Positions 5,228 through 17,575 of a DNA stretch of 64,000 bases are shown here, piece after piece. Numbering within the stretch: the stretch's first letter is position 1; the number at the start of each line of letters is the position of its first letter. Source of the DNA: Nguyenibacter vanlangensis (GTDB taxonomy: Bacteria; Pseudomonadota; Alphaproteobacteria; Acetobacterales; Acetobacteraceae); the NCBI RefSeq assembly GCF_038719015.1, contig NZ_CP152276.1, forward strand, positions 2,647,501-2,711,500. The letters run 5' to 3'. Both the position numbers and the translations under genes were made by a program. The notes under the pieces are model-generated. The model saw nothing but the letters and a program-made list of their open reading frames with translations. It did not search any database and was not told the origin of the DNA.

Positions 5228-5647
5228 TCACGGCGACGGCGGGGTGTCCTGGTCCAGTTCCTCATGGAGACGCCGCCCGGTGCTCATGCGCCGGGCCAGG
5301 GTTTCGATGAACTGCTCGTAGCGCGCGCTGGCCTGCGCCCGTGCCGCCGCGGCGGGCTCGGGCAATGCGGGCGTCGTCAGCAGCCAGAAACGGATGAACA
5401 ACGCCAGGGTCTCGACGCTGATACCGAGATCCCGCTCGATGCGCCCGAGGCGCCGGTCGACCCGCTCAAGCCGGCGGCCAACCGCCCCCTCCCCGCCTCC
5501 CTGCTCCGGCGACAGGAATGCCGCCAGGGCGGTTTCGACTACCATGGACTGCGACTGATGACGGCGGGTGGCGAGATCGCCGACCGTTTTCGCCAGATCC
5601 GGGTCGAGATAGACGGTCATCTGCTGTTTCCTGCGCGGGCGGCTCAT
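5228..5647 (-). CDS. Ribbon-helix-helix (CopG-type) protein of the tra/trb cluster
   Basis: Small DNA-binding protein of 139 residues. Residues 1-45 (MSRPRRKQQMTVYLDPDLAK, then MVVETALAAFL) match the ribbon-helix-helix fold. The rest is helical and charged, with a hydrophobic patch near residues 78-92. In related alphaproteobacterial elements a gene of this kind sits between traG and trbB and may act as an autoregulator or a relaxosome/coupling accessory; which of the two is not decided by sequence. Its ATG overlaps the traG stop (TGATG), so it is the second gene of a traG-copG unit. Confidence 0.8.
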   Translation of the reverse strand: MSRPRRKQQMTVYLDPDLAKTVGDLATRRHQSQSMVVETALAAFLSPEQGGGEGAVGRRLERVDRRLGRIERDLGISVETLALFIRFWLLTTPALPEPAAAARAQASARYEQFIETLARRMSTGRRLHEELDQDTPPSP

Positions 5648-7641
5648 CAGCGATCCATCCCCATATCGTCGTCGCGATCCAAGGCAGTCAGGCGGGCGAT
5701 ACGCTGCAGGTCCGCGAATTCCCGCTGCGCATGCGCCGACCGTCCGTCGGCCTCAGAATGCTGCGGGTCCGGCTCGGCTGGCGACGTCCGCTGCGGTGGC
5801 GGCGTGTGGGCGGCGTCAAACTCCTTGCTGTGCTTCTTCCCCGCCCCGACAGGATCGCCAGTCGCCTCCTCGTCCGTGGCTGCGGGCGCTTCCTCCGGCA
5901 TCTGTTCCGGCCGGGCCAGACCGGTCCAGTCGTCTGGTTTCGGTGGAGTCTCGCCCCCGTCCCGAAGCGGCGGCGGCAGAACCCGGCTCTGCAAGCGAGA
6001 ATCCGTGTAGTAACGGGCCTTTTTCGCACGCACCGGCGGCGTGCCCGCCGCCATGACGATCTCGTCCGCCGCCGGCAATTGCATGATCTCGCCCGGCGTC
6101 AGCAGCGGGCGCGCGCTTTCCTGGCGGGAGACCATGAGATGCCCGAGCCAGGGCGAGAGCCGATGCCCGGCATAGTTCTTCTGCGCCCGGATCTCGGTCG
6201 CGGTGCCCAGGGCGTCGGAGACGCGTTTGGCCGTCCGCTCGTCATTGGTGGCGAAACAGACGCGGACATGGCAATTGTCGAGGATCGAATTGTTCTGGCC
6301 GTAGGCTTTCTCGATCTGGTTCAGCGACTGGGCGATCAGGAACGCCTTGATCCCGTAGCCGGCCATGAAGGCCAGCGCGCTCTCGAAGAAATCCAGCCGG
6401 CCCAGAGCCGGGAATTCGTCGAGCATCAGCAGCAGGCGATGGTTCTGTTTCTGCCCTTGCAGATCCTCGGTCAGCCGTCGGCCGATCTGGTTCAGCACCA
6501 GCCGGATCAATGGCTTGGTGCGGCTGATATCCGACGGCGGCACGCTGAGATAGAGCGTGGTAGGCTGGCCGCCCCTGACGATATCGGTGATCCGCCAGGC
6601 GCAGCGCGCCGTGACCTTGGCGACGACGGGGTCGCGATACAGGCCGAGGAACGACATCGCGGTGGACAGCACGCCTGAGCGTTCATTGGGGGATTTATTC
6701 AGCAGTTCGCGCGCGGCGCTGGCGACCACGGGATGCGGTCCCGCTTCCCCGAGGTGCCGGGTGCGCATCATCGCGCTCAGCGTGCTCTCGATCGGTCGCT
6801 TGGGATCGGACAGCAGATTGGCGACGCCGGACAGGGTCTTATCCGGCTCGGCATAGAGCACGTGCAGGATGGCTCCGACCAGCAGGGAATGGCTGGTCTT
6901 CTCCCAATGGTTGCGCCGCTCAAGCGAGCCCTCGGGGTCGACCAGGACATCGGCGACGTTCTGGGCGTCGCGCACCTCCCACTCGCCGCGACGGATTTCA
7001 AGCAGCGGGTTGTAGGCATCGGACCGTGGATTGGTGGGATCGAACAGCAGCACCCGGCTGAAGCCGGCGCGGAAGCCCGCCGTTCCCTGCCAGTTCTCGC
7101 CCTTGATGTCGTGGACGATCACCGAGCCCGGCCAGGTCAGCAGGGTGGGGATGACCAGGCCCACGCCCTTGCCCGAGCGGGTCGGCGCGAAGCACAGCAC
7201 ATGCTCGGAGCCGTTATGGCGGAGATACTCTCTTCGGTAGCGGCCGAGCACGACGCCGTCGGGATCGAGCAGGCCGAATCTGCGCAGATCCTCGGGCTCG
7301 GCCCAGCGGGCGCTGCCGTAGGTGGCGGCACGTTTCGCTTCGCGGGCACGGCGCACGGACAGCGCCACCGCCACCAGGAAGGCGGCTACGCCGCCCGACC
7401 CGGCGATCCAGCCGCCCTGCGCAAAGATGTGCGGCGCGTAGGCGTCGAACACATACCACCACCAGAAGATCATCGGCGGCGGATAGATCGCCCAGCGATG
7501 GAACAGGACGAACCAGGGCGATCCCAGTTCCGGCTGGAAGGCGAGCTGCCAGGCCACCCATTCTGTCGCCAGCCACCACGACAGCAGGATCATCGCCAGG
7601 ACGACGATCATCTGCCCCCAGAGAATGCGTGCTCCAGACAT
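5647..7641 (-). CDS. traG: TraG/VirD4 type IV coupling protein
   Basis: Coupling ATPase (664 residues) that docks the relaxosome on the type IV channel. The N-terminus has transmembrane segments (about 8-30, 45-65 and 75-98). Walker A (APTRSGKGVG) lies near residue 151 and Walker B (LLLMLDEFPALG) near residue 401, followed by the conserved IAQSLNQIEKAYG segment. The C-terminal 90 residues are polar and low in complexity. The ATG at 7641 follows AAAGGAGC at good spacing; the long upstream extension of the frame is rejected. A truncated second copy of its N-terminal region lies at 53032-53217 behind the relaxase. Confidence 0.95.
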   Translation of the reverse strand: MSGARILWGQMIVVLAMILLSWWLATEWVAWQLAFQPELGSPWFVLFHRWAIYPPPMIFWWWYVFDAYAPHIFAQGGWIAGSGGVAAFLVAVALSVRRAREAKRAATYGSARWAEPEDLRRFGLLDPDGVVLGRYRREYLRHNGSEHVLCFAPTRSGKGVGLVIPTLLTWPGSVIVHDIKGENWQGTAGFRAGFSRVLLFDPTNPRSDAYNPLLEIRRGEWEVRDAQNVADVLVDPEGSLERRNHWEKTSHSLLVGAILHVLYAEPDKTLSGVANLLSDPKRPIESTLSAMMRTRHLGEAGPHPVVASAARELLNKSPNERSGVLSTAMSFLGLYRDPVVAKVTARCAWRITDIVRGGQPTTLYLSVPPSDISRTKPLIRLVLNQIGRRLTEDLQGQKQNHRLLLMLDEFPALGRLDFFESALAFMAGYGIKAFLIAQSLNQIEKAYGQNNSILDNCHVRVCFATNDERTAKRVSDALGTATEIRAQKNYAGHRLSPWLGHLMVSRQESARPLLTPGEIMQLPAADEIVMAAGTPPVRAKKARYYTDSRLQSRVLPPPLRDGGETPPKPDDWTGLARPEQMPEEAPAATDEEATGDPVGAGKKHSKEFDAAHTPPPQRTSPAEPDPQHSEADGRSAHAQREFADLQRIARLTALDRDDDMGMDR

Positions 7642-7731
7642 TGGACGGCTCCTTTCTGCAACAGGCGTTACAGAGAGGGGCTCCGTCAGGAATTCAATCA
7701 CTTTGCCCGGTCGTGCGTAGTCGGGCGGAGC

Positions 7732-7750
7732 GGAGCGTAAAATTGTCGGA
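7732..7750. promoter_or_regulatory. Shared backbone motif, site B (traG / HU intergenic)
   Basis: GGAGCGTAAAATTGTCGG lies in the 213-base divergent region between traG (minus) and the HU-like gene (plus), about 90 bases from the traG start. It matches the motif at sites A, C and D. It could serve one or both divergent genes. Confidence 0.55.
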
Positions 7751-7854
7751 TTTGACCCAACCCATACTACCACTCGCTGACGGGGGCGTGACGAAACCCC
7801 GAATCGCACGTACCATGCCGGGGCATTTCGCCGAAACAGGGACCGGTACCGTCG

Positions 7855-8124
7855 ATGAGCAAGGCTTTTATCGCAGCTGTTCTTCAGGACTCTCTCAACT
7901 GCACCGGGGTCGCGGCGCAAAAGGCGGCCGCCGATCTGATCGACGCGATCACGGTCGAACTGAAGACGGAAGGCGGCTTCACCCTGCCCTCCTTCGGCGC
8001 TTTCACGGTCCACAAGACCAAGGCCCGCAAGGCGCTCAATCCCCGCACCGGCGAGCCGGTGAAGGTCAAAGCGGGCAAGACCGTGCGGTTCAAGGCCAGC
8101 CCGGTGCTCAAGAAGGCCGTCTGA
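7855..8124 (+). CDS. HU/IHF-family DNA-binding protein
   Basis: Histone-like protein of 89 residues covering a full HU fold: helices over residues 1-40, then GGFTLPSFGAFTVHKTKARKALNPRTGE, the conserved DNA-gripping arm with the PRTG signature, and KAGKTVRFKASPVLKKAV at the end. HU proteins bend DNA and support replication, relaxosome assembly and recombination. It is the only plus-strand gene in this part of the backbone and is divergent from traG. A small inverted repeat (CTGACCC-TC-GGGTCAG) overlaps its stop codon. Confidence 0.93.
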   Translation: MSKAFIAAVLQDSLNCTGVAAQKAAADLIDAITVELKTEGGFTLPSFGAFTVHKTKARKALNPRTGEPVKVKAGKTVRFKASPVLKKAV

Positions 8125-8677
8125 CCCTCGGGTCAGGCAGGCCGGCATCTCTGGGCTCCGCCTGACAGGATCCGGGCGTTTTCATCCATCGCTGCAGAGG
8201 TCGGGGCAGGCATGGATCAACCATGCGGGCAATGGCGTAACACGGTGGATGATCCGACCGTCCGCGATCTTGATCACCGAATTGGGTCGCACTGCGGTAA
8301 TATCCGACGCCACCACGCGAGGCGCGCGCGATCGCGGCCGGCTGGTTGTGCAGGCTGCTCACATAGCGCCGCCGGATATCGTTTGGCTCGATGCGCAAAC
8401 CGCTTGACTACTATATGTGCATGGCAGACCGGCAGGATTGACCGGGGAACGTTAAGGTCCGGTCTTGGTGAGAGAGACAGAAAAACTCGCCATTCCTTAG
8501 CGGCACATATGAGATCATTTTCCCTTTCTAAGCGTGTCGTCCTGCAGCGCATCAGTCGCGCGATCTGGACGACCCCAGTAAACAGAGACATATACGCAGC
8601 GAGCGTTCAGGATATGAACTCAGTGGAGAACTGCCTGTGCTTTCTTCAACAAAGCACAGGCGGCCCAACTCATGATA
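8125..8677. other. Junction between conjugative backbone and cargo, no gene recognised
   Basis: No open frame here resembles a known family. On the minus strand short stretches such as VVASDITAVRPNSVIKIADGRIIHRVTP are protein-like but not assignable and are broken by stops and frame changes. This is where backbone ends and accessory DNA begins, so it may hold a decayed gene. Confidence 0.4.
8633..8661 (-). terminator. Hairpin downstream of the MFS remnant
   Basis: GCCTGTGCTTT and AAAGCACAGGC form a perfect 11-bp stem with a 7-base loop (CTTCAAC), 17 bases past the stop of the MFS remnant. There is no U-run on the minus side, so termination is plausible but unproven. A perfect 14-bp palindrome TCATGATATCATGA follows at 8670-8683. 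Confidence 0.5.
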
Positions 8678-9398
8678 TCATGAATCAGCTTGTTCAAGGC
8701 CGCTCACTGCCGTGGCGGCAATCACCCACCCCATCGGCCAAGGTGTTCCGTCCGCGCAGGAGCCCACGAGCGCGGAGCCCAGCATCCCGCAGCCATACTG
8801 CATCGCACCCACAAGGCCGGAGAGGCTGCCAGCGTGCCGGGCAAAGTTTTCCATCGCAAGCGTAATGGAATTGGCGAAGATGAAGCCGCGGGACGAGATG
8901 AACAGGAAAACCGGGACGAAAACCCCGAAAACGCCGCCCCATCCGGTCCAGGCATCGCAAGCCAGAAGACAACCGGCCAGGGCGGAGAGGACCGACCCGC
9001 AAAGCAGCATCCGCCGGGCGCCATAACGCATGACGAGACGAGACGAGACGAGCGTTGAGCAGATTGGCGATCATCATGCCAATGACGCCAGCACCGAACA
9101 GGAAGCCATAAAACTGCGCGCCGACGTGATAATACGAAATATAGACAAACGGACTGCCCGCCACATAGGCGAAGCAGCCTCTGTAAATCAGAGCGCCTGC
9201 CCCGGCAGTCCCGAGCAGGCGTGGATTGAGGATCAGGGAGCCATCGCCGGCAAGAATGCGCCTCACGGACCGACGGAGCCGGCGCTCCGCCGGTAGGGTC
9301 CACAACGCCGCCAGCGTGACGACGCCGATGGCCACGAGGGTCCAGAAGATTCCACGCCAGCTCGTGACGCGCCGTTCTGGCGTCGAACATGTCTTCAC
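8678..9398 (-). pseudogene. Bcr/CflA-type MFS drug transporter, truncated and frameshifted
   Basis: The C-terminal half of a 12-TM drug:H+ antiporter. Frame one (from about 9398) reads SWRGIFWTLVAIGVVTL to GFLFGAGVIGMMIANLLNARLV. The second frame continues MRYGARRMLLCGSVLSALAGCLL to GSALVGSCADGTPWPMGWVIAA. The frames part at a run of four GACGA units (9032-9051); removing two units (10 bases) rejoins them as NARLVMRYGARR, the expected family sequence. The N-terminal half is missing and an IS630-like fragment lies where it should begin. Non-functional as it stands. Confidence 0.8.
9032..9051. repeat. Pentanucleotide tandem repeat, four GACGA units
   Basis: Four perfect 5-bp units inside the MFS remnant. 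Two or five units keep the frame open, four do not, so the frameshift is best explained by slippage of two extra units. Confidence 0.8.
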
Positions 9399-9432
9399 CT
9401 ACGAGAAAGGGTCCGTCCGTCCCCGCGTGAGG

Positions 9433-9561
9433 CCCTATCATAGATCGCCGTAAGGCCGGAAGCCGGCGCGACTGCGCCGTCTGTTTCGTCGCCCGAGCCA
9501 GAACACGAAGGGTTGCAGCACCATAATCGTCACGAAACACCAGCGCGTTGCCCGTCCTCAT
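9433..9561 (-). mobile_element. IS630-family transposase N-terminal remnant
   Basis: The minus-strand stretch FRDDYGAATLRVLARATKQTAQSRRLPAL aligns with the N-terminus of the IS630 transposase at 16497 (LRDDYSASDLRRLAARSQQANAARRLLAL). Only about 43 residues remain. It abuts the truncated MFS gene and probably marks the rearrangement that removed the 5' half of that gene. Confidence 0.65.
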
Positions 9562-9744: not shown

Positions 9745-10293
9745 TTAGAAGCTCGGGGGCGTGCAGGCACTGATGACCTGACACGCTTCCGACCCCACGC
9801 AACGAAAGCGATGCGGCCGATGGCTTTCGAAATAATAGGCATCGCCCGGCCCAAGGATCTTGCGTTCATCGTCGACCGTGACCTCCAGTCGGCCCGACAG
9901 AATAATGCCCCCCTCTTCTCCGTCATGAATCAGGGGGACCTTCCCTGTATCCGAGCCCGGCTGATAGCATTCCTTCAGGATCTGAAGACTGCGACCGAAC
10001 AGATTGTCACCGACCTGTCGGTATGAAATCGCCCCCTTGCCGATTTCTGCCAATTCCTCCGATGCGTAGAACACCTTCCGGGAACGATCGGGCTCAAGCG
10101 CAAAGAATTCGGCCAGCCCGATCGGAATTCCATCAAGAATGCGCTTCAGCGCACCCACGGACGGGTTCGACGAGTTGGACTCTATCAGGGAAATCGTCGA
10201 ATTCGTGACACCCGTCCGTTTGGCCAGTTCCCGCTGCGACAGATTATGGGCCAAGCGAAAATGGCGCAGACGATTGCCGATATCGACCGACAT
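9745..10293 (-). CDS. XRE-family regulator with C-terminal cupin domain (PuuR-like)
   Basis: 182-residue repressor-type protein. An HTH_3 domain occupies residues 3-60 (IGNRLRHFRLAHNLSQRELAKRTGVTNSTISLIE), and a cupin covers about residues 105-175 (GGIILSGRLEVTVDDERKILGPGDAYYFESHRPHRF). This architecture is typical of PuuR-like controllers of amine and amino-acid catabolism, in which the cupin senses a metabolite. I use the ATG at 10293; a TTG at 10326 is the only upstream option. The gene is divergent from the aminotransferase gene with a 142-base promoter region, so control of the aminotransferase-decarboxylase pair is likely. Confidence 0.88.
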   Translation of the reverse strand: MSVDIGNRLRHFRLAHNLSQRELAKRTGVTNSTISLIESNSSNPSVGALKRILDGIPIGLAEFFALEPDRSRKVFYASEELAEIGKGAISYRQVGDNLFGRSLQILKECYQPGSDTGKVPLIHDGEEGGIILSGRLEVTVDDERKILGPGDAYYFESHRPHRFRCVGSEACQVISACTPPSF

Positions 10294-10435
10294 CTTGTTC
10301 CGTTCCCGGTGTTGAATATATCGCAAATCTAGGCATGACGCTCACGCCGATTCAAGAGGTTGCGCGCGAAGAGAAAAGGACTTGTTCACACGGCCGGAAT
10401 CGTTGATCCCACAGGCTCATTCATGGGAGCCCGGC

Positions 10436-11770
10436 ATGAGCCCGACCGCGAAAACGAATATGCCTGTTCTGGATAATTTCTGGATGCCCTTTACCGCGAA
10501 CCGGCAATTCAAGGCGGCGCCGCGCCTCCTAGCCGGTGCCGAAGGCATGTATTACACCGACATCGATGGCCATCGGGTCATGGACGGTACCGCGGGGTTG
10601 TGGTGCGTCAATGCGGGCCATGGCCGTCGGCAGATCACCGACGCCGTCACCCGCCAGCTTGCGACGCTGGACTTCGCCCCGACCTTCCAGATGGGCCATC
10701 CGATCGCCTTTGAATTCGCCGAGAGGCTGGCCGCGATCGCTCCTGGCGGCCCGGCGGCCGGGCTCGACCGCGTGTTCTTTACCGGGTCCGGCTCGGAATC
10801 CGTGGAAACAGCGCTGAAAATTGCGATCGCCTATCAGCGGGCCATCGGCCAGGGCACACGTACCCGCGTCATCGGCCGGGAAAAGGGCTATCATGGTGTC
10901 GGCTTCGGAGGTATCTCGGTCGGCGGTCTGGTGAACAACCGCCGGGTCTTTCCCCAGATTCCCGCCGCGCATTTGCGCCATACGCTCGACATCCCGCGCA
11001 ATGCCTTCTCGAAGGGGCTGCCGCGGCACGGGGTCGAACTGGCGGAGGATCTGGAACGTCTGGTCGCGCTGCACGGCGCCGAGACCATCGCCGCCGTCAT
11101 CGTCGAACCGATGTCGGGATCGGCGGGTGTCGTCCTGCCGCCCAAGGGCTATCTGGAGCGACTGCGCGCCATTGCCGACCAGCACGGCATTCTTCTCATT
11201 TTCGATGAAGTCATTACCGGCTTCGGGCGGCTGGGCACCCCGTTCGCGACGGATTATTTCGGCGTGATCCCCGATCTGGTCACCACCGCCAAGGGCCTGA
11301 CCAACGGTACCATCCCGATGGGCGCGGTCTTTGCCAGCCGCAAGGTCTATGATGGTCTCATGACCGGGCCGGAACAGCAGATCGAACTCTTTCACGGCTA
11401 CACCTATTCCGGCCACCCGGTCGCCTGCGCGGCGGGTCTGGCGACACTCGACGTCTACGCCGAAGATGGACTCCTGACGCGGGGCGCCGAACTCGCCACC
11501 TATTGGCAGGACGCCCTGCACAGCCTGGCCGACCGGCCGCATGTCCTCGATATCCGCAATCTCGGACTGGTCGGCGCAATCGAACTGGCCGCGCGCGACG
11601 GCGCGCCCGGCGCGCGCGCCTATGACGTCTTCGTCGATTGCTTCCACAAAGGCCTGCTCATCCGCGTCACCGGCGACATCATTGCCCTCTCTCCGCCCCT
11701 GATCGTCACGACGGATCATATCGATACCATTGTCTCGATTCTCGGCGACGTAATCACCCGCGCTGCCTGA
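10436..11770 (+). CDS. Beta-alanine (omega-amino acid):pyruvate aminotransferase
   Basis: Class III PLP-dependent aminotransferase, 444 residues. The opening LDNFWMPFTANRQFK and DGTAGLWCVNAGHGR are characteristic of beta-alanine:pyruvate transaminases. Other landmarks are FFTGSGSESVETALK, EKGYHGVGFGG, the IFDEVITGFGR motif and the PLP-lysine segment TTAKGLTNGTIPMGA. The reaction would convert beta-alanine plus pyruvate to malonate semialdehyde plus L-alanine. The ATG at 10436 follows GGGAG; a TTG at 10382 is possible but weaker. The next gene, 43 bases downstream, encodes a malonate semialdehyde decarboxylase, which supports beta-alanine as the natural substrate. Confidence 0.88.
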   Translation: MSPTAKTNMPVLDNFWMPFTANRQFKAAPRLLAGAEGMYYTDIDGHRVMDGTAGLWCVNAGHGRRQITDAVTRQLATLDFAPTFQMGHPIAFEFAERLAAIAPGGPAAGLDRVFFTGSGSESVETALKIAIAYQRAIGQGTRTRVIGREKGYHGVGFGGISVGGLVNNRRVFPQIPAAHLRHTLDIPRNAFSKGLPRHGVELAEDLERLVALHGAETIAAVIVEPMSGSAGVVLPPKGYLERLRAIADQHGILLIFDEVITGFGRLGTPFATDYFGVIPDLVTTAKGLTNGTIPMGAVFASRKVYDGLMTGPEQQIELFHGYTYSGHPVACAAGLATLDVYAEDGLLTRGAELATYWQDALHSLADRPHVLDIRNLGLVGAIELAARDGAPGARAYDVFVDCFHKGLLIRVTGDIIALSPPLIVTTDHIDTIVSILGDVITRAA

Positions 11771-11813
11771 CGGAGAAGCCTTCGTCAACGTCATTCACAC
11801 GAAAGGAACGCCT

Positions 11814-12203
11814 ATGCCCCTGATGAAATTCCACGTCCTGAAGGGACGGACACCGGCAGAGATCGATCAGCTTCTCGATGCCGCCCATGAGGCGATGCTG
11901 CGTGCGTTCAAGGTACCGGCCCGAGACCGCTATCAGATCCTGGTCGAACACGAGCCCACGCATCTGCGCGCGCTGGATACCGGCCTCGATATCCCGAGAA
12001 CCGAGAAATTCGTCCTGCTCGAAGTCGTCTCGCGGCCACGCAGCCGCGAGGCCAAGCTGGCTTTCTACGAGATCCTCTGTGCCGAATGGCAGGACAAATG
12101 TGGAATCGCACCGTCGGACGTCATGATCTCGTTTGTCCAGAATACCGACGATGACTGGTCTTTTGGTAACGGTCGTGCCCAGTTTGTGACGGGTGAATTG
12201 TAA
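11814..12203 (+). CDS. Malonate semialdehyde decarboxylase (tautomerase superfamily)
   Basis: 129 residues. After Met removal Pro becomes residue 1, the hallmark of the tautomerase superfamily. Numbered from that Pro, the protein has Asp37, Arg73, Arg75, Trp114, Phe116, Phe123 and Leu128, the catalytic and hydrophobic-wall residues I recall for characterised malonate semialdehyde decarboxylase, in a chain of the same length. The reaction yields acetaldehyde and CO2. The gene directly follows the omega-aminotransferase, which would supply the substrate. The known role of this enzyme is in halogenated-alkene breakdown; its pairing with a beta-alanine transaminase is uncommon. A promiscuous tautomerase or hydratase activity is also possible. 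Confidence 0.82.
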   Translation: MPLMKFHVLKGRTPAEIDQLLDAAHEAMLRAFKVPARDRYQILVEHEPTHLRALDTGLDIPRTEKFVLLEVVSRPRSREAKLAFYEILCAEWQDKCGIAPSDVMISFVQNTDDDWSFGNGRAQFVTGEL

Positions 12204-12695: not shown

Positions 12696-13613
12696 TCACA
12701 GGTGATGTGACGGCAACAGGGTCGGATCTGAAAGCGATTTCCGAACCGTCTCATACAGCTGTAGCACCGGCGCGGTAAAGACATGCCGGTTGCGGGCGAC
12801 CAGCACCAGTTCTCGCGCGGGCAGCATCTCGCGAACCTGAATCGGCACCAATGTCTCCGCAATGGCGCGATGCGTGAACGACGCACTGGTCAACATCGTC
12901 ACGCTGTCGGTGTTCACGGTCAGGAGATGCGCCGTCACCGTGGCCGTACATTCCGTCACCCGTTCGGGAAAGCGCAGCCTCTCCTGGGTAAACAAGCGGT
13001 GGAACGGCGCGGTCACATCGTCGCGCGGATCGTGGACCACCCATTCCTGGTCCAGCAGATCACGTATCGACCGCGCCTCACGCAGCGGATGCCCCTTGCG
13101 GCAGGCCAGCAGAGAGGGAATATGCCGTAGCAGCACACACTCGTCTGGCCGGCTATAGGCAGGCATCTGTGAACTGAGGGCGAAATCGAGCGTACCGTCG
13201 CGCAGTTCCTGCATCAGCTGGCTGGGACGCATTTCCAGAACCCGTAGACGGATCTTCGGATTACGTCGGCGAAATTCTATGATACAGTCACCGATTTCCT
13301 TCATGATCGAAACGACCGGGGTGATACCGATCGTCGTCGTGATGTTCCCGGAATCCTCCGCTTCCAGCAGGTCGTCCTTCGCCCGGCGCACGCTTTCATT
13401 GATGAAGCGGGCATGCATGACCAGCCGCTGCCCCTGCGACGTCAGACGCGCCCCCTTGTTCGATCGTTCGAAGAGCGCGATGCCCAGTGACGATTCCAGT
13501 TCCTTGATCGCCTTGCTCAGCGCGCCCTGGGTGATATTCAGCGTCTCGGACGCGGCATTGAAGCTCCCGGTTTCGGCCAGCGCGACGAGTGCGCGCAAAT
13601 GGTGCAGCTTCAC
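12696..13613 (-). CDS. LysR-family transcriptional regulator
   Basis: 305 residues from a GTG at 13613, which follows AGGAGG at ideal spacing; the longer frame has no such site. An N-terminal winged HTH is at residues 1-60 (LHHLRALVALAETGSFNAASETLNITQGALSKAIKELE), then a helical linker and a type 2 periplasmic-binding-fold effector domain (ITTTIGITPVVS to the end). It lies between the beta-alanine pair and the convergently unlinked amidohydrolase gene, both of which it might control. Effector unknown. Confidence 0.9.
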   Translation of the reverse strand: MKLHHLRALVALAETGSFNAASETLNITQGALSKAIKELESSLGIALFERSNKGARLTSQGQRLVMHARFINESVRRAKDDLLEAEDSGNITTTIGITPVVSIMKEIGDCIIEFRRRNPKIRLRVLEMRPSQLMQELRDGTLDFALSSQMPAYSRPDECVLLRHIPSLLACRKGHPLREARSIRDLLDQEWVVHDPRDDVTAPFHRLFTQERLRFPERVTECTATVTAHLLTVNTDSVTMLTSASFTHRAIAETLVPIQVREMLPARELVLVARNRHVFTAPVLQLYETVRKSLSDPTLLPSHHL

Positions 13614-13772
13614 CTGGCCCTCCTCTCGGTCGCATCGCTTGCCCTGCTCCCGCGACGACACGACAAGCCGCCGGGAGCGTAACAGAACCCTAAAGGCCCG
13701 AAGACCATGTCACAAGACACGACCGGACGGAAAAGGCGACCGTGCCACCAGCCCGCATTTTCAATCAGGGTC

Positions 13773-15215
13773 TCAGATTTCGGGAACCAGGTCGAGCGAC
13801 GGCGAGACATCCGCCGGAATCGGGCAGACATAAGAGGCCCTACGCAGCTTGTCCGCCAGAGCCGAACGGGCCGCATCCAGCAGGCCGGGCTGGGTCAGCA
13901 CCTCGATGGCGGTGGCAGCCATCAGTTTCGCCACATGGATCATCCCCGTATGCGCAAGCGAGGATTTTCCCTGGGCCACCATCTGCCAGGAATGGAGCGC
14001 CGTCCCGATGGCACAGGTCGCGCCGAGGGCCTGCACGGTCGGCACCTGCCAGCTCACATCTCCGACGTCGGTTGACCCCATCATCCCGCCGGGCGACTGC
14101 CCCTCAGGCAGCAGGGGCGGCACCACGTCACAGACCACCAGTTCTTCGCTCCCCCGGACGAGGGGCGCGAGCAGCCGGCGAGCGGTCTGCAATTCACCTT
14201 CCGAGAAGGTCTTCCGCATCTCTCGGGCAACAGCGCGATCGGCCTCCGAGAACCGCGGCGGCCCCAGGCGCTCCAGGCATCGCTGCATCGCCTGCTCCAG
14301 CGGGCGGTTGGGCAGCAGCTCCGCCATGCCGCTGATCACGCGCGACGACATCGTCGTCTCCGTCATCATCGCGGCCCCTTCCGCGATTCTCCGCACCCTT
14401 CCTGCCAATTTCAGCATTTCGTCCAGTTCCATGGCGCGGACGGAATAGGCCAGAACGGCCCGGGACTGCACGACATTCGGCGCGGTGCCCCCCGCATCCA
14501 CATAGGCATAATGGATCCGCGATGTCGGCAGCATATGTTCACGCAGGTAATTCGCCCCGATATTCATCAACTCTGCAGCATCCAGTGCCGACCGGCCCAG
14601 AAAGGGAGCGGCGGCGGCATGGGCGGCCCGCCCGACAAACGTGAAATCAATCCGCTGCGAGGCCAGCGATGCGGCGGGTGCCACGCCCGCTATCCAGAAC
14701 GGATGCCACGAGATCGCGATATCGACGTCATCGAACACGCCCTCACGCACCATGAACCCCTTTCCGGCCCCGCCTTCCTCCGCCGGGCAGCCATAATACC
14801 GTACCCGGCCGGGCGTGCCGGTGGTCGCCAGCCACTCCCTGATGGCATTCGCGGCCAACGCGGCGCCCGCACCCAGAAGATTATGTCCACACCCATGACC
14901 GTTGCCATCACCCGACAGAGGCATGCGTTCCGTCGCGCCCGCCTGCTGGCTCAGCCCCGGCAGCGCGTCATACTCCCCAAGAAAGGCAATGACCGGCCCA
15001 CCCTCCCCAGATTCGGCCATGATGGCGGTCGGCAGTCCCCCCACATCGACGGTAACGCGGAAGCCTTCTTCCTCCAGCCGCCGCTTGTGCAGCGCGACCG
15101 ACCGGTATTCCTTGTAATTGAGTTCCGGCGCCTCCCACACGGCGTCGCTGAGGGCGGTAAAGCGCTGGCTGCCGGCATCGACCAGCCTCCAGATCGTCTC
15201 GCAATTGCCGCTCAT
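13773..15215 (-). CDS. M20-family metallo-amidohydrolase (AbgB-like)
   Basis: 480-residue di-zinc peptidase/amidohydrolase. HGCGHN near residue 104 supplies a metal ligand; CPAEEGGAGK carries the general-base Glu; a Bacterial dimerisation domain follows (FVGRAAHAAAAPFLGRSALDAAELMNIG) and a late HTG supplies the last ligand. The pattern NYKEYRSVALHKRRLEEEGF at the start and overall length resemble AbgB, the p-aminobenzoyl-glutamate hydrolase subunit, but no AbgA partner is present. It is the last gene of a minus-strand set with a TonB receptor, an amidase and an MHS carrier, so a secreted or imported amide is the likely substrate. Confidence 0.85.
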   Translation of the reverse strand: MSGNCETIWRLVDAGSQRFTALSDAVWEAPELNYKEYRSVALHKRRLEEEGFRVTVDVGGLPTAIMAESGEGGPVIAFLGEYDALPGLSQQAGATERMPLSGDGNGHGCGHNLLGAGAALAANAIREWLATTGTPGRVRYYGCPAEEGGAGKGFMVREGVFDDVDIAISWHPFWIAGVAPAASLASQRIDFTFVGRAAHAAAAPFLGRSALDAAELMNIGANYLREHMLPTSRIHYAYVDAGGTAPNVVQSRAVLAYSVRAMELDEMLKLAGRVRRIAEGAAMMTETTMSSRVISGMAELLPNRPLEQAMQRCLERLGPPRFSEADRAVAREMRKTFSEGELQTARRLLAPLVRGSEELVVCDVVPPLLPEGQSPGGMMGSTDVGDVSWQVPTVQALGATCAIGTALHSWQMVAQGKSSLAHTGMIHVAKLMAATAIEVLTQPGLLDAARSALADKLRRASYVCPIPADVSPSLDLVPEI

Positions 15216-16412: not shown

Positions 16413-17575
16413 TACCAAAGGACGTAGCCACTGACTCGTGTGTGAAGTGACGAACGGCGCCGGCTCTGATTCTCTTGATGCGGGAGGATCTGGCTGATGA
16501 CGGCGGCGGTAAAGCTACGAGATGACTATTCGGCCTCTGATCTGAGGCGACTTGCGGCGCGCAGCCAGCAGGCGAACGCTGCGCGCCGGCTTCTGGCCCT
16601 GGCGGCGATCCGTGACGGGTCCAGCCGGACGGATGCGGCCCGCGTAGGCGGCATGGATCGCCAGACATTGCGAGACTGGGTTCATCGCTTCAATGCCGAA
16701 GGACCCGATGGCCTGCGCGATCATCAGCACGCGGGGCCAGCCTGCCGATTGAACGGGGCACAGCAGGCCGAATTGAAGGCCCTGGTCGAGGCGGGCCCGG
16801 ATCGGCAGCGCGATGGCGTGGTGCGCTGGCGCCGGGTCGATCTGCAACGCGTGATCGAGGAGCGCTTCGGCGTCGTCTACCACGAGCGGCACGTGTCCAC
16901 TCTGCTGAAACGGCTTGGTTTTTCCCATGTCAGCGCCCGGCCACGCCATCCGGGTCAGGACGCTGGCGTCATGGAGGCGTTTAAAAAAACTTCCCCCGCA
17001 TCCTGAACGCCCATATCGGCCATCTGCCTAAGGGCAAGCCGATCGAGATCTGGTTCCAGGACGAGGCCCGGATCGGCCAGAAGAACGGGATCGTCCGACA
17101 ATGGGCCCGGCGCGGCACGCGGCCACGCCAGCCGGCCGACCAGCGCTACGAGAATGCCTGGCTGTTCGGGGCGATCTGCCCGGCGCGCGGCAAAGCCGCC
17201 GGCCTGGCGCTACCGTTCATCGGCACGGCCGGCATGCAACTGCATATCGAGGAAATCTCACGCTGCGTCGCCCGCGGTGCCCACGCTGTCGTGCTGCTCG
17301 ATCGCGCAGGATGGCATACCACCGACAAGCTGAAGCTGCCCCGCAATATCAGCCTGATCTTCCTGCCGTCCCGCGCTCCCGAACTGAACCCGGTCGAGAA
17401 TATCTGGCAGTTCCTTCGCGCCAACTGGCTGTCCAACACCGTCTTCGACGGCATCGATCACATCATCGACGCCGCCTGTTCCGCCTGGAACAATCTCGCC
17501 GCCCTCCCGGAAACCATCCGATCCATCGGACTCAGAAAATGGGCTCACACAAGTCTGTGTCTATAACCGTTGGTA
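16413..17575. mobile_element. IS630-family insertion sequence inside the TonB receptor gene
   Basis: 1163-bp element. The ends are related inverted repeats: TACCAAAGG...TAGCCAC..GACTCGTGTGA on the left and TACCAACGG...TAGACAC..GACTTGTGTGA on the right (read inward). Flanks are TGA on both sides (16410-16412 and 17576-17578), a 3-bp direct repeat whose removal restores the host frame. The family normally duplicates TA, so either the boundary differs or this member uses a 3-bp target. Confidence 0.8.
16497..17566 (+). CDS. IS630-family transposase (probable -1 frameshift)
   Basis: The first frame encodes the HTH domain (LRDDYSASDLRRLAARSQQA to SHVSARPRHPGQDAGVMEAFKK) and stops near 17006. The -1 frame continues NFPRILNAHIGHLPKGKPIEIWFQDEARIG with the DDE catalytic residues (WFQDEARIG, VLLDRAGWHT, LPSRAPELNPVENIWQFLR). 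The switch falls at TTTAAAAAAAC (16980-16990), a slippery A-run, so programmed frameshifting, known in some IS630 elements, is more likely than decay. Confidence 0.85.

Follow-up and report, generated by a model that had tools for sequence, protein, structure and literature searches.

Malonate semialdehyde is a product of two unrelated pathways, beta-alanine transamination and inositol catabolism. In the standard degradation of beta-alanine, as set out in passages of PMC6581905, a transaminase is followed by a malonate semialdehyde dehydrogenase that gives acetyl-CoA. Reductive pyrimidine degradation, described in part of PMC7332683, concerns the same node, the fate of beta-alanine-derived malonate semialdehyde, and employs the transaminase PydD and the malonic semialdehyde reductase PydE, which reduces the aldehyde. 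In myo-inositol (iol) catabolism, the last enzyme described is the dehydrogenase IolA, named malonate-semialdehyde dehydrogenase in sections of PMC9430895. Known malonate semialdehyde decarboxylases (MSADs) are tied instead to 1,3-dichloropropene breakdown, according to passages of PMC10606566. Within the open-access literature, we found no report joining MSAD with beta-alanine or inositol catabolism, and the available text of PMC5818174, PMC10606566, PMC11641302, PMC9430895, PMC6581905, PMC7332683, and PMC5789663 contains no such link.

The locus described here has a gene for an MSAD-type protein directly after that for a beta-alanine transaminase. It has the first step and the transaminase family in common with standard beta-alanine degradation, but its second step would be a decarboxylation to acetaldehyde that uses neither CoA nor NAD. 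We propose that the two genes and their regulator constitute a small catabolic unit, predicted to convert beta-alanine to malonate semialdehyde and then to acetaldehyde and CO2, and we estimate the probability of this reading at roughly 70%. The genomic evidence gives good support to a predicted form of beta-alanine catabolism in which the second step is a decarboxylation, and genomic context, trees, and active-site residues support the original prediction of such a route. If correct, it would provide the MSAD family with a role in normal physiology, beyond xenobiotic degradation, add a CoA- and NAD-free branch to the catabolism of beta-alanine, uracil, and perhaps inositol, explain how some bacteria lacking (methyl)malonate semialdehyde dehydrogenase (MMSDH) handle malonate semialdehyde, and allow a function to be assigned to proteins labeled only "tautomerase family protein" in plasmid records.

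The locus and its two enzymes

The window, by which we mean the whole stretch of 64,000 nucleotides that was analyzed, belongs to the genome of Nguyenibacter vanlangensis, a single contig of 4.75 Mb (NZ_CP152276.1). On its forward strand, the transaminase gene (10436..11770) starts with an ATG at 10436, encodes 444 amino acids, and has a stop codon that ends at 11770; we call its product AptA2, AptA1 being a second AptA encoded elsewhere on the same chromosome. A 43-nt spacer (11771..11813), whose GA-rich sequence (gaaaggaa) ahead of the next ATG is a likely ribosome-binding site, leads to the gene for the 129-residue MSAD-type tautomerase (11814..12203, forward strand), the single MSAD gene of this genome in a search at E <= 0.001. 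These positions agree with the original prediction, which placed a decarboxylase-like gene at 11814, 43 bases 3' of a transaminase gene.

Divergent from the pair, on the reverse strand, lies a gene for an XRE-cupin transcriptional regulator (9745..10293) with the Pfam domains HTH_3 and Cupin_2. Its open reading frame can be read from 10326, and Rhizobium relatives align from residue 12, that is, from the ATG at 10293. The regulator had been described as PuuR-like; its architecture and orientation stand, but it scores 121 bits against the PuuR model NF007408, below the cutoff of 211, and judging by sequence it is a protein that shares the XRE-cupin architecture with PuuR and is not PuuR itself. 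From their position, promoters and an operator are expected in the intergenic region (10294..10435). A repeat search of 10300-10445 returned just one 7-nt inverted repeat (10414-10420/10436-10442), and we do not regard this sole repeat as a clear operator for the regulator.

AptA2, a pyridoxal phosphate (PLP)-dependent class III enzyme, matches the NCBIfam model NF052567, "omega-aminotransferase AptA," with 715 bits against a curated cutoff of 500. Its closest relatives in the PDB are beta-alanine:pyruvate and omega-amino acid:pyruvate transaminases, the best sequence match being 4b98 (473 bits), which bears the name beta-alanine--pyruvate transaminase; from its family and this nearest solved relative, AptA2 is a predicted beta-alanine:pyruvate transaminase. 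At the protein level it is 98.9% identical to its counterpart in Gluconacetobacter aggeris, 84-85% identical to Rhizobium plasmid proteins, and 63% identical to AptA1 of its own genome.

The small protein belongs to Pfam Tautomerase_2 (89 bits, cutoff 28), and its strongest sequence matches in the PDB are all MSADs: 2aag (142 bits), the enzyme of Pseudomonas pavonaceae 170, 2aaj (138 bits), and the enzyme of the coryneform FG41 (3mjz; 82 bits). Its AlphaFold2 model (mean pLDDT 86, with a weak C terminus) retrieves 2aag at rank 1 in Foldseek, with 53% identity in that alignment. The fold is like that of both 2aag and the FG41 enzyme, and the ungapped length matches that of 2aag. The eight active-site residues that had been claimed for the protein, Pro1, Asp37, Arg73, Arg75, Trp114, Phe116, Phe123, and Leu128 in mature numbering, were all found on alignment to 2aag; the first four of these are named as MSAD catalytic residues in passages of PMC11641302.

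These residues are strongly conserved among close relatives. Arg73 is retained in 83 of 84 locus homologs of equal length, and each of the other seven positions in all 84; this count comprises 84 of the 85 full-length matches among the locus sequences, the one left out being L091 (one residue longer); L066 (split match) does not belong to the 85, and L087 and L088 have no MSAD. Among the best 120 of 1,441 database homologs, every one of the eight positions is retained in 119 or 120. As a control, we used 14 remote Acetobacteraceae tautomerases (26-38% identity), in which Pro1 (12/14), Asp37 (13/14), Trp114, and Phe116 (both 14/14) are also retained, so that these four residues say little. Arg73 and Arg75 occur together in only two of the 14, both with Met or Leu at position 123, and the combination of Arg73, Arg75, and Phe123 occurs in none, position 123 lying outside the alignment in five sequences that all lack Arg73. 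The FG41 MSAD differs from the protein of the window at residues 73 and 123, where it has Gln and Tyr, and thus Arg73 and Phe123 are not strictly needed. Taken with the structural matches, these residues indicate that the small protein is probably an MSAD-type enzyme, predicted to split malonate semialdehyde into acetaldehyde and CO2.

Recurrence and probable separate assembly of the pair

When the 62 named MSAD loci from a genome scan were grouped by their neighbor genes, 15 had AptA immediately upstream of MSAD, and a separate 15 had iolB, -C, -D, or -E in the locus. In another 21 loci, all from Methylobacterium or Methylorubrum (L014, L015, L021, and 18 more), MSAD and a gene for a CitE-like lyase are divergently oriented; four, all from Komagataeibacter, have sugar-porter and Gfo/Idh genes but no iol core genes beside MSAD, and seven have other contexts. 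Redundant entries were counted once (L076, L081, L084, L085/L086, and G200 with L034, L046, L042, L056, and L007, respectively), and L018 and L063 are two contigs of one Gluconobacter frateurii assembly. In the Komagataeibacter loci (L028, L045, L052, and L054), two of which are annotated in part, MSAD comes after the sugar-porter gene in a cluster with the Gfo/Idh genes, and L045 also has 2-hydroxyacid dehydrogenase and glyoxalase-fold genes.

Recurrence of the pair, proposed at the outset as a check on the prediction, was thus found in 15 of the 62 loci, which go back to at least two separate assemblies (see below). The iol context extends to plasmids: on four Agrobacterium/Rhizobium plasmids examined, a relative of the MSAD of the window follows iolC-iolD-iolB, twice with iolE next, and on a fifth it lies among other genes. 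Asaia siamensis (L056/L085/L086) and G. frateurii (L018/L063) each have one MSAD that follows AptA and a second alongside iol genes. That one tautomerase family accompanies both AptA and iol genes is the strongest argument for malonate semialdehyde as its substrate. The MSAD of the window thus has close relatives in or beside iol clusters; an inositol-related use of this copy itself is not favored, since iolB, a part of that system, is absent from the genome (no TIGR04378 match).

Several neighbors of the pair in other genomes are suggestive of downstream steps. The gene for the D-amino-acid dehydrogenase DadA is present in eight of the 15 named pair loci, with an alanine racemase gene adjoining it in that of G. 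johannae (L084), the one such locus annotated for a racemase, and dadA and dadX are found near AptA of Rhizobium etli; such genes fit a transaminase that depends on pyruvate and has its alanine product recycled. Downstream of the pair in G. frateurii (L018) and A. siamensis (L085) are genes for an amino-acid permease, for which the nearest model is GABA permease, under its cutoff, and for an aldehyde dehydrogenase (ALDH) that could oxidize acetaldehyde. DadA, racemase, permease, and ALDH genes are all absent beside the pair of the window.

The trees do not allow all of these pairs a common origin. In a quick tree of MSADs (129 columns), the sequences of the window and of G. aggeris fall, with support of 98, inside a set of 11 rows, seven of which are iol linked and mostly rhizobial, and this set stands apart from the other AptA-linked MSADs. 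Approximately unbiased (AU) tests rejected a single clade of AptA-linked MSADs (p 0.0008) as well as a single clade of iol-linked MSADs (p 5e-5). In the AptA tree, the proteins of the window and of G. aggeris group with AptA1 and an MMSDH-adjacent AptA (100/100), and the remaining 18 MSAD-linked rows make up a clade of their own. The trees and the AU test therefore rule out a single origin for every AptA-MSAD pair. The regulators differ likewise: an XRE-cupin relative at the pair was found just in the window and in G. aggeris, and a MocR-like regulator gene is present in 13 of the 14 other named pair loci. From these sequence comparisons, the pair seems to have been assembled at least twice, that of the window apart from those of Methylobacterium and of other acetic acid bacteria.

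Over 2.0 kb, the DNA of the regulator and AptA2 genes is 77% identical to sequences on Rhizobium plasmids, where the counterpart of the regulator, 84% identical as a protein, occupies the same place. On the two such plasmid loci examined, the regulator and AptA genes are present without MSAD and without an annotated MMSDH beside them, which implies that AptA2 had a use without MSAD; none of the 522 plasmid records with a match covers 80% of the regulator-AptA-MSAD segment. The pair of the window thus seems, from sequence relationships, to join two rhizobial-type pieces, a plasmid-type regulator-AptA module and an MSAD from a mostly inositol-linked clade.

Malonate semialdehyde dehydrogenase, the proposed route, and alternatives

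In the usual route, the position that we assign to the decarboxylase would be held by a CoA-acylating malonate semialdehyde dehydrogenase. The genome of the window has no MMSDH over the cutoff, its best TIGR01722 match scoring 297 bits against 448.5. Absence of the dehydrogenase where the pair is present, which was to be looked for according to the original prediction, was found in most but not all cases: among 18 pair genomes (that of the window, the 15 named ones, G208 [L082], and G192 [A. siamensis, L085]), MMSDH over the cutoff is absent from 14, including that of the window, and present in four. The search for MMSDH covered 50 of the 62 MSAD loci and found it in 2/15 genomes with the pair, 12/14 with iol genes, 0/4 with the Komagataeibacter sugar-porter context, 2/10 with CitE, and 6/7 with other contexts. 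The 2/15 of named pair genomes compares with 20/35 of other MSAD genomes (p 0.005, kinship ignored), one of these 35, A. siamensis, also holding a pair.

In a genus set of 14 genomes (one of them 87% complete), six have MSAD only, four both enzymes, four MMSDH only, and none neither, a distribution that is suggestive only (Fisher p 0.085). Across 200 Acetobacteraceae genomes, TIGR01722 is matched over the cutoff in 79, and a close MSAD (>140 bits) is present in 16, eight with MMSDH and eight without. Strict replacement of MMSDH by MSAD as a general rule is ruled out by these eight genomes and by the four pair genomes that keep MMSDH. Moreover, of the 122 Acetobacteraceae genomes with AptA, 69 lack both MMSDH and a close MSAD, and AptA by itself therefore does not imply an MSAD route. 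In G143 (L088), an AptA of the same clade as AptA2 directly follows MMSDH, as in the standard route. In an uncultured Pleomorphomonas (L009, 4344-6387), an ALDH gene over the MMSDH cutoff directly precedes MSAD, with iolB, iolD, and iolC on the opposite strand, so that two predicted enzymes for the same intermediate are encoded next to each other.

Our working model for the pair is as follows. AptA2, on the basis of its family and nearest solved relative, would transaminate beta-alanine with pyruvate as the acceptor, yielding malonate semialdehyde and L-alanine. The MSAD-type enzyme, to judge by its residues, fold, and context, would use Pro1 as a general acid to convert malonate semialdehyde to acetaldehyde and CO2. 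By analogy with relatives, in which the respective genes lie beside the pair, alanine racemase and D-amino-acid dehydrogenase may then regenerate pyruvate from alanine, and an ALDH may oxidize acetaldehyde to acetate. Uracil would be one source of beta-alanine, via a locus elsewhere on the chromosome (G000:C1:669611-676600, L087) that contains AptA1 (741 bits to the AptA model) and, beside it, genes for a dihydropyrimidinase/D-hydantoinase (584 bits, cutoff 393), a carbamoylase-family amidase, a RutR-like regulator (151 bits, under the cutoff of 368), and an NCS1-type permease; from its gene content, this is a probable uracil-to-beta-alanine cluster. Somewhat less firmly, though still on balance, we suggest that, next to oxidation to acetyl-CoA and reduction to 3-hydroxypropionate, MSAD offers malonate semialdehyde a third general fate, a decarboxylation that needs no cofactor. 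Pathways for beta-alanine and for inositol would have taken up this reaction repeatedly, chiefly in Alphaproteobacteria, and the native function of the close MSAD family would lie there and not in the breakdown of haloalkenes.

The main flux could instead be carried by another enzyme, either a generic ALDH, with malonate or acetyl-CoA as the product, or a reductase forming 3-hydroxypropionate, with MSAD draining excess aldehyde. The genome has seven ALDH matches below the MMSDH cutoff, each of which might accept malonate semialdehyde as a substrate, and the coexistence of MSAD and MMSDH in four of the 18 pair genomes and in most searched iol-linked genomes would also fit such an overflow function. 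Against this stand the 14 pair genomes without MMSDH over the cutoff and the position of MSAD directly after AptA, an arrangement put together separately at least twice, and we consider this explanation unlikely.

Still less likely, in our judgment, is that another amine (2,3-diaminopropionate, GABA, or a polyamine product, for example) is the substrate of the transaminase and that the tautomerase acts on the resulting compound. Omega-transaminases are often promiscuous, the regulator resembles PuuR, Rhizobium relatives of the regulator-AptA module lie near a diaminopropionate ammonia-lyase gene (L110), and the CitE-like gene accompanies MSAD in about a third of the loci (21/62), all of which would be compatible with a different substrate; the score of AptA2 above the curated cutoff, the presence of the MSAD residue set, and the occurrence of this tautomerase beside iol genes, a context that only malonate semialdehyde fits, argue for the beta-alanine route. 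That the MSAD gene is a remnant of 1,3-dichloropropene/3-chloroacrylate degradation and the transaminase gene a chance neighbor is very improbable and not favored, for although the solved MSADs come from 1,3-dichloropropene degradation (PMC10606566), the genome has no match to the cis-CaaD family PF14832 (the one dehalogenase family covered by the search), the recurrent neighbors of MSAD are AptA and iol genes, and the pair arose by separate assembly on more than one occasion.

Conservation and flanking DNA

The regulator-AptA-MSAD DNA is 98.2% identical to that of G. aggeris LMG 27801 (L007), and the MSAD proteins of the two are identical, their genes differing by one synonymous and no nonsynonymous codon change in 390 nt. 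AptA has 19 synonymous and five nonsynonymous changes, and the regulator 11 and six. The small number of nonsynonymous changes in AptA and MSAD suggests that the two enzymes are maintained.

Colinearity with G. aggeris stops at about 9372 on the left, beyond which are a gene for a TraG/VirD4-type coupling protein (5647-8148) and a weak, subthreshold match to the MFS family in a reverse-strand open reading frame at about 8694-9398; together, these features suggest that a mobile region may adjoin the block. The reverse-strand open reading frame at 8725-9561, upstream, matched no Pfam family at 1e-5. On the other side, positions 16413-17575 of the window hold an insert of ~1.16 kb with transposase-like open reading frames, absent from G. 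aggeris, that splits a gene resembling those for TonB receptors, which in G. aggeris is a single 778-residue open reading frame. Between the pair and this insert, at 12696-15215, are genes for a LysR regulator and an M20-family amidohydrolase, both of which are also present in G. aggeris.
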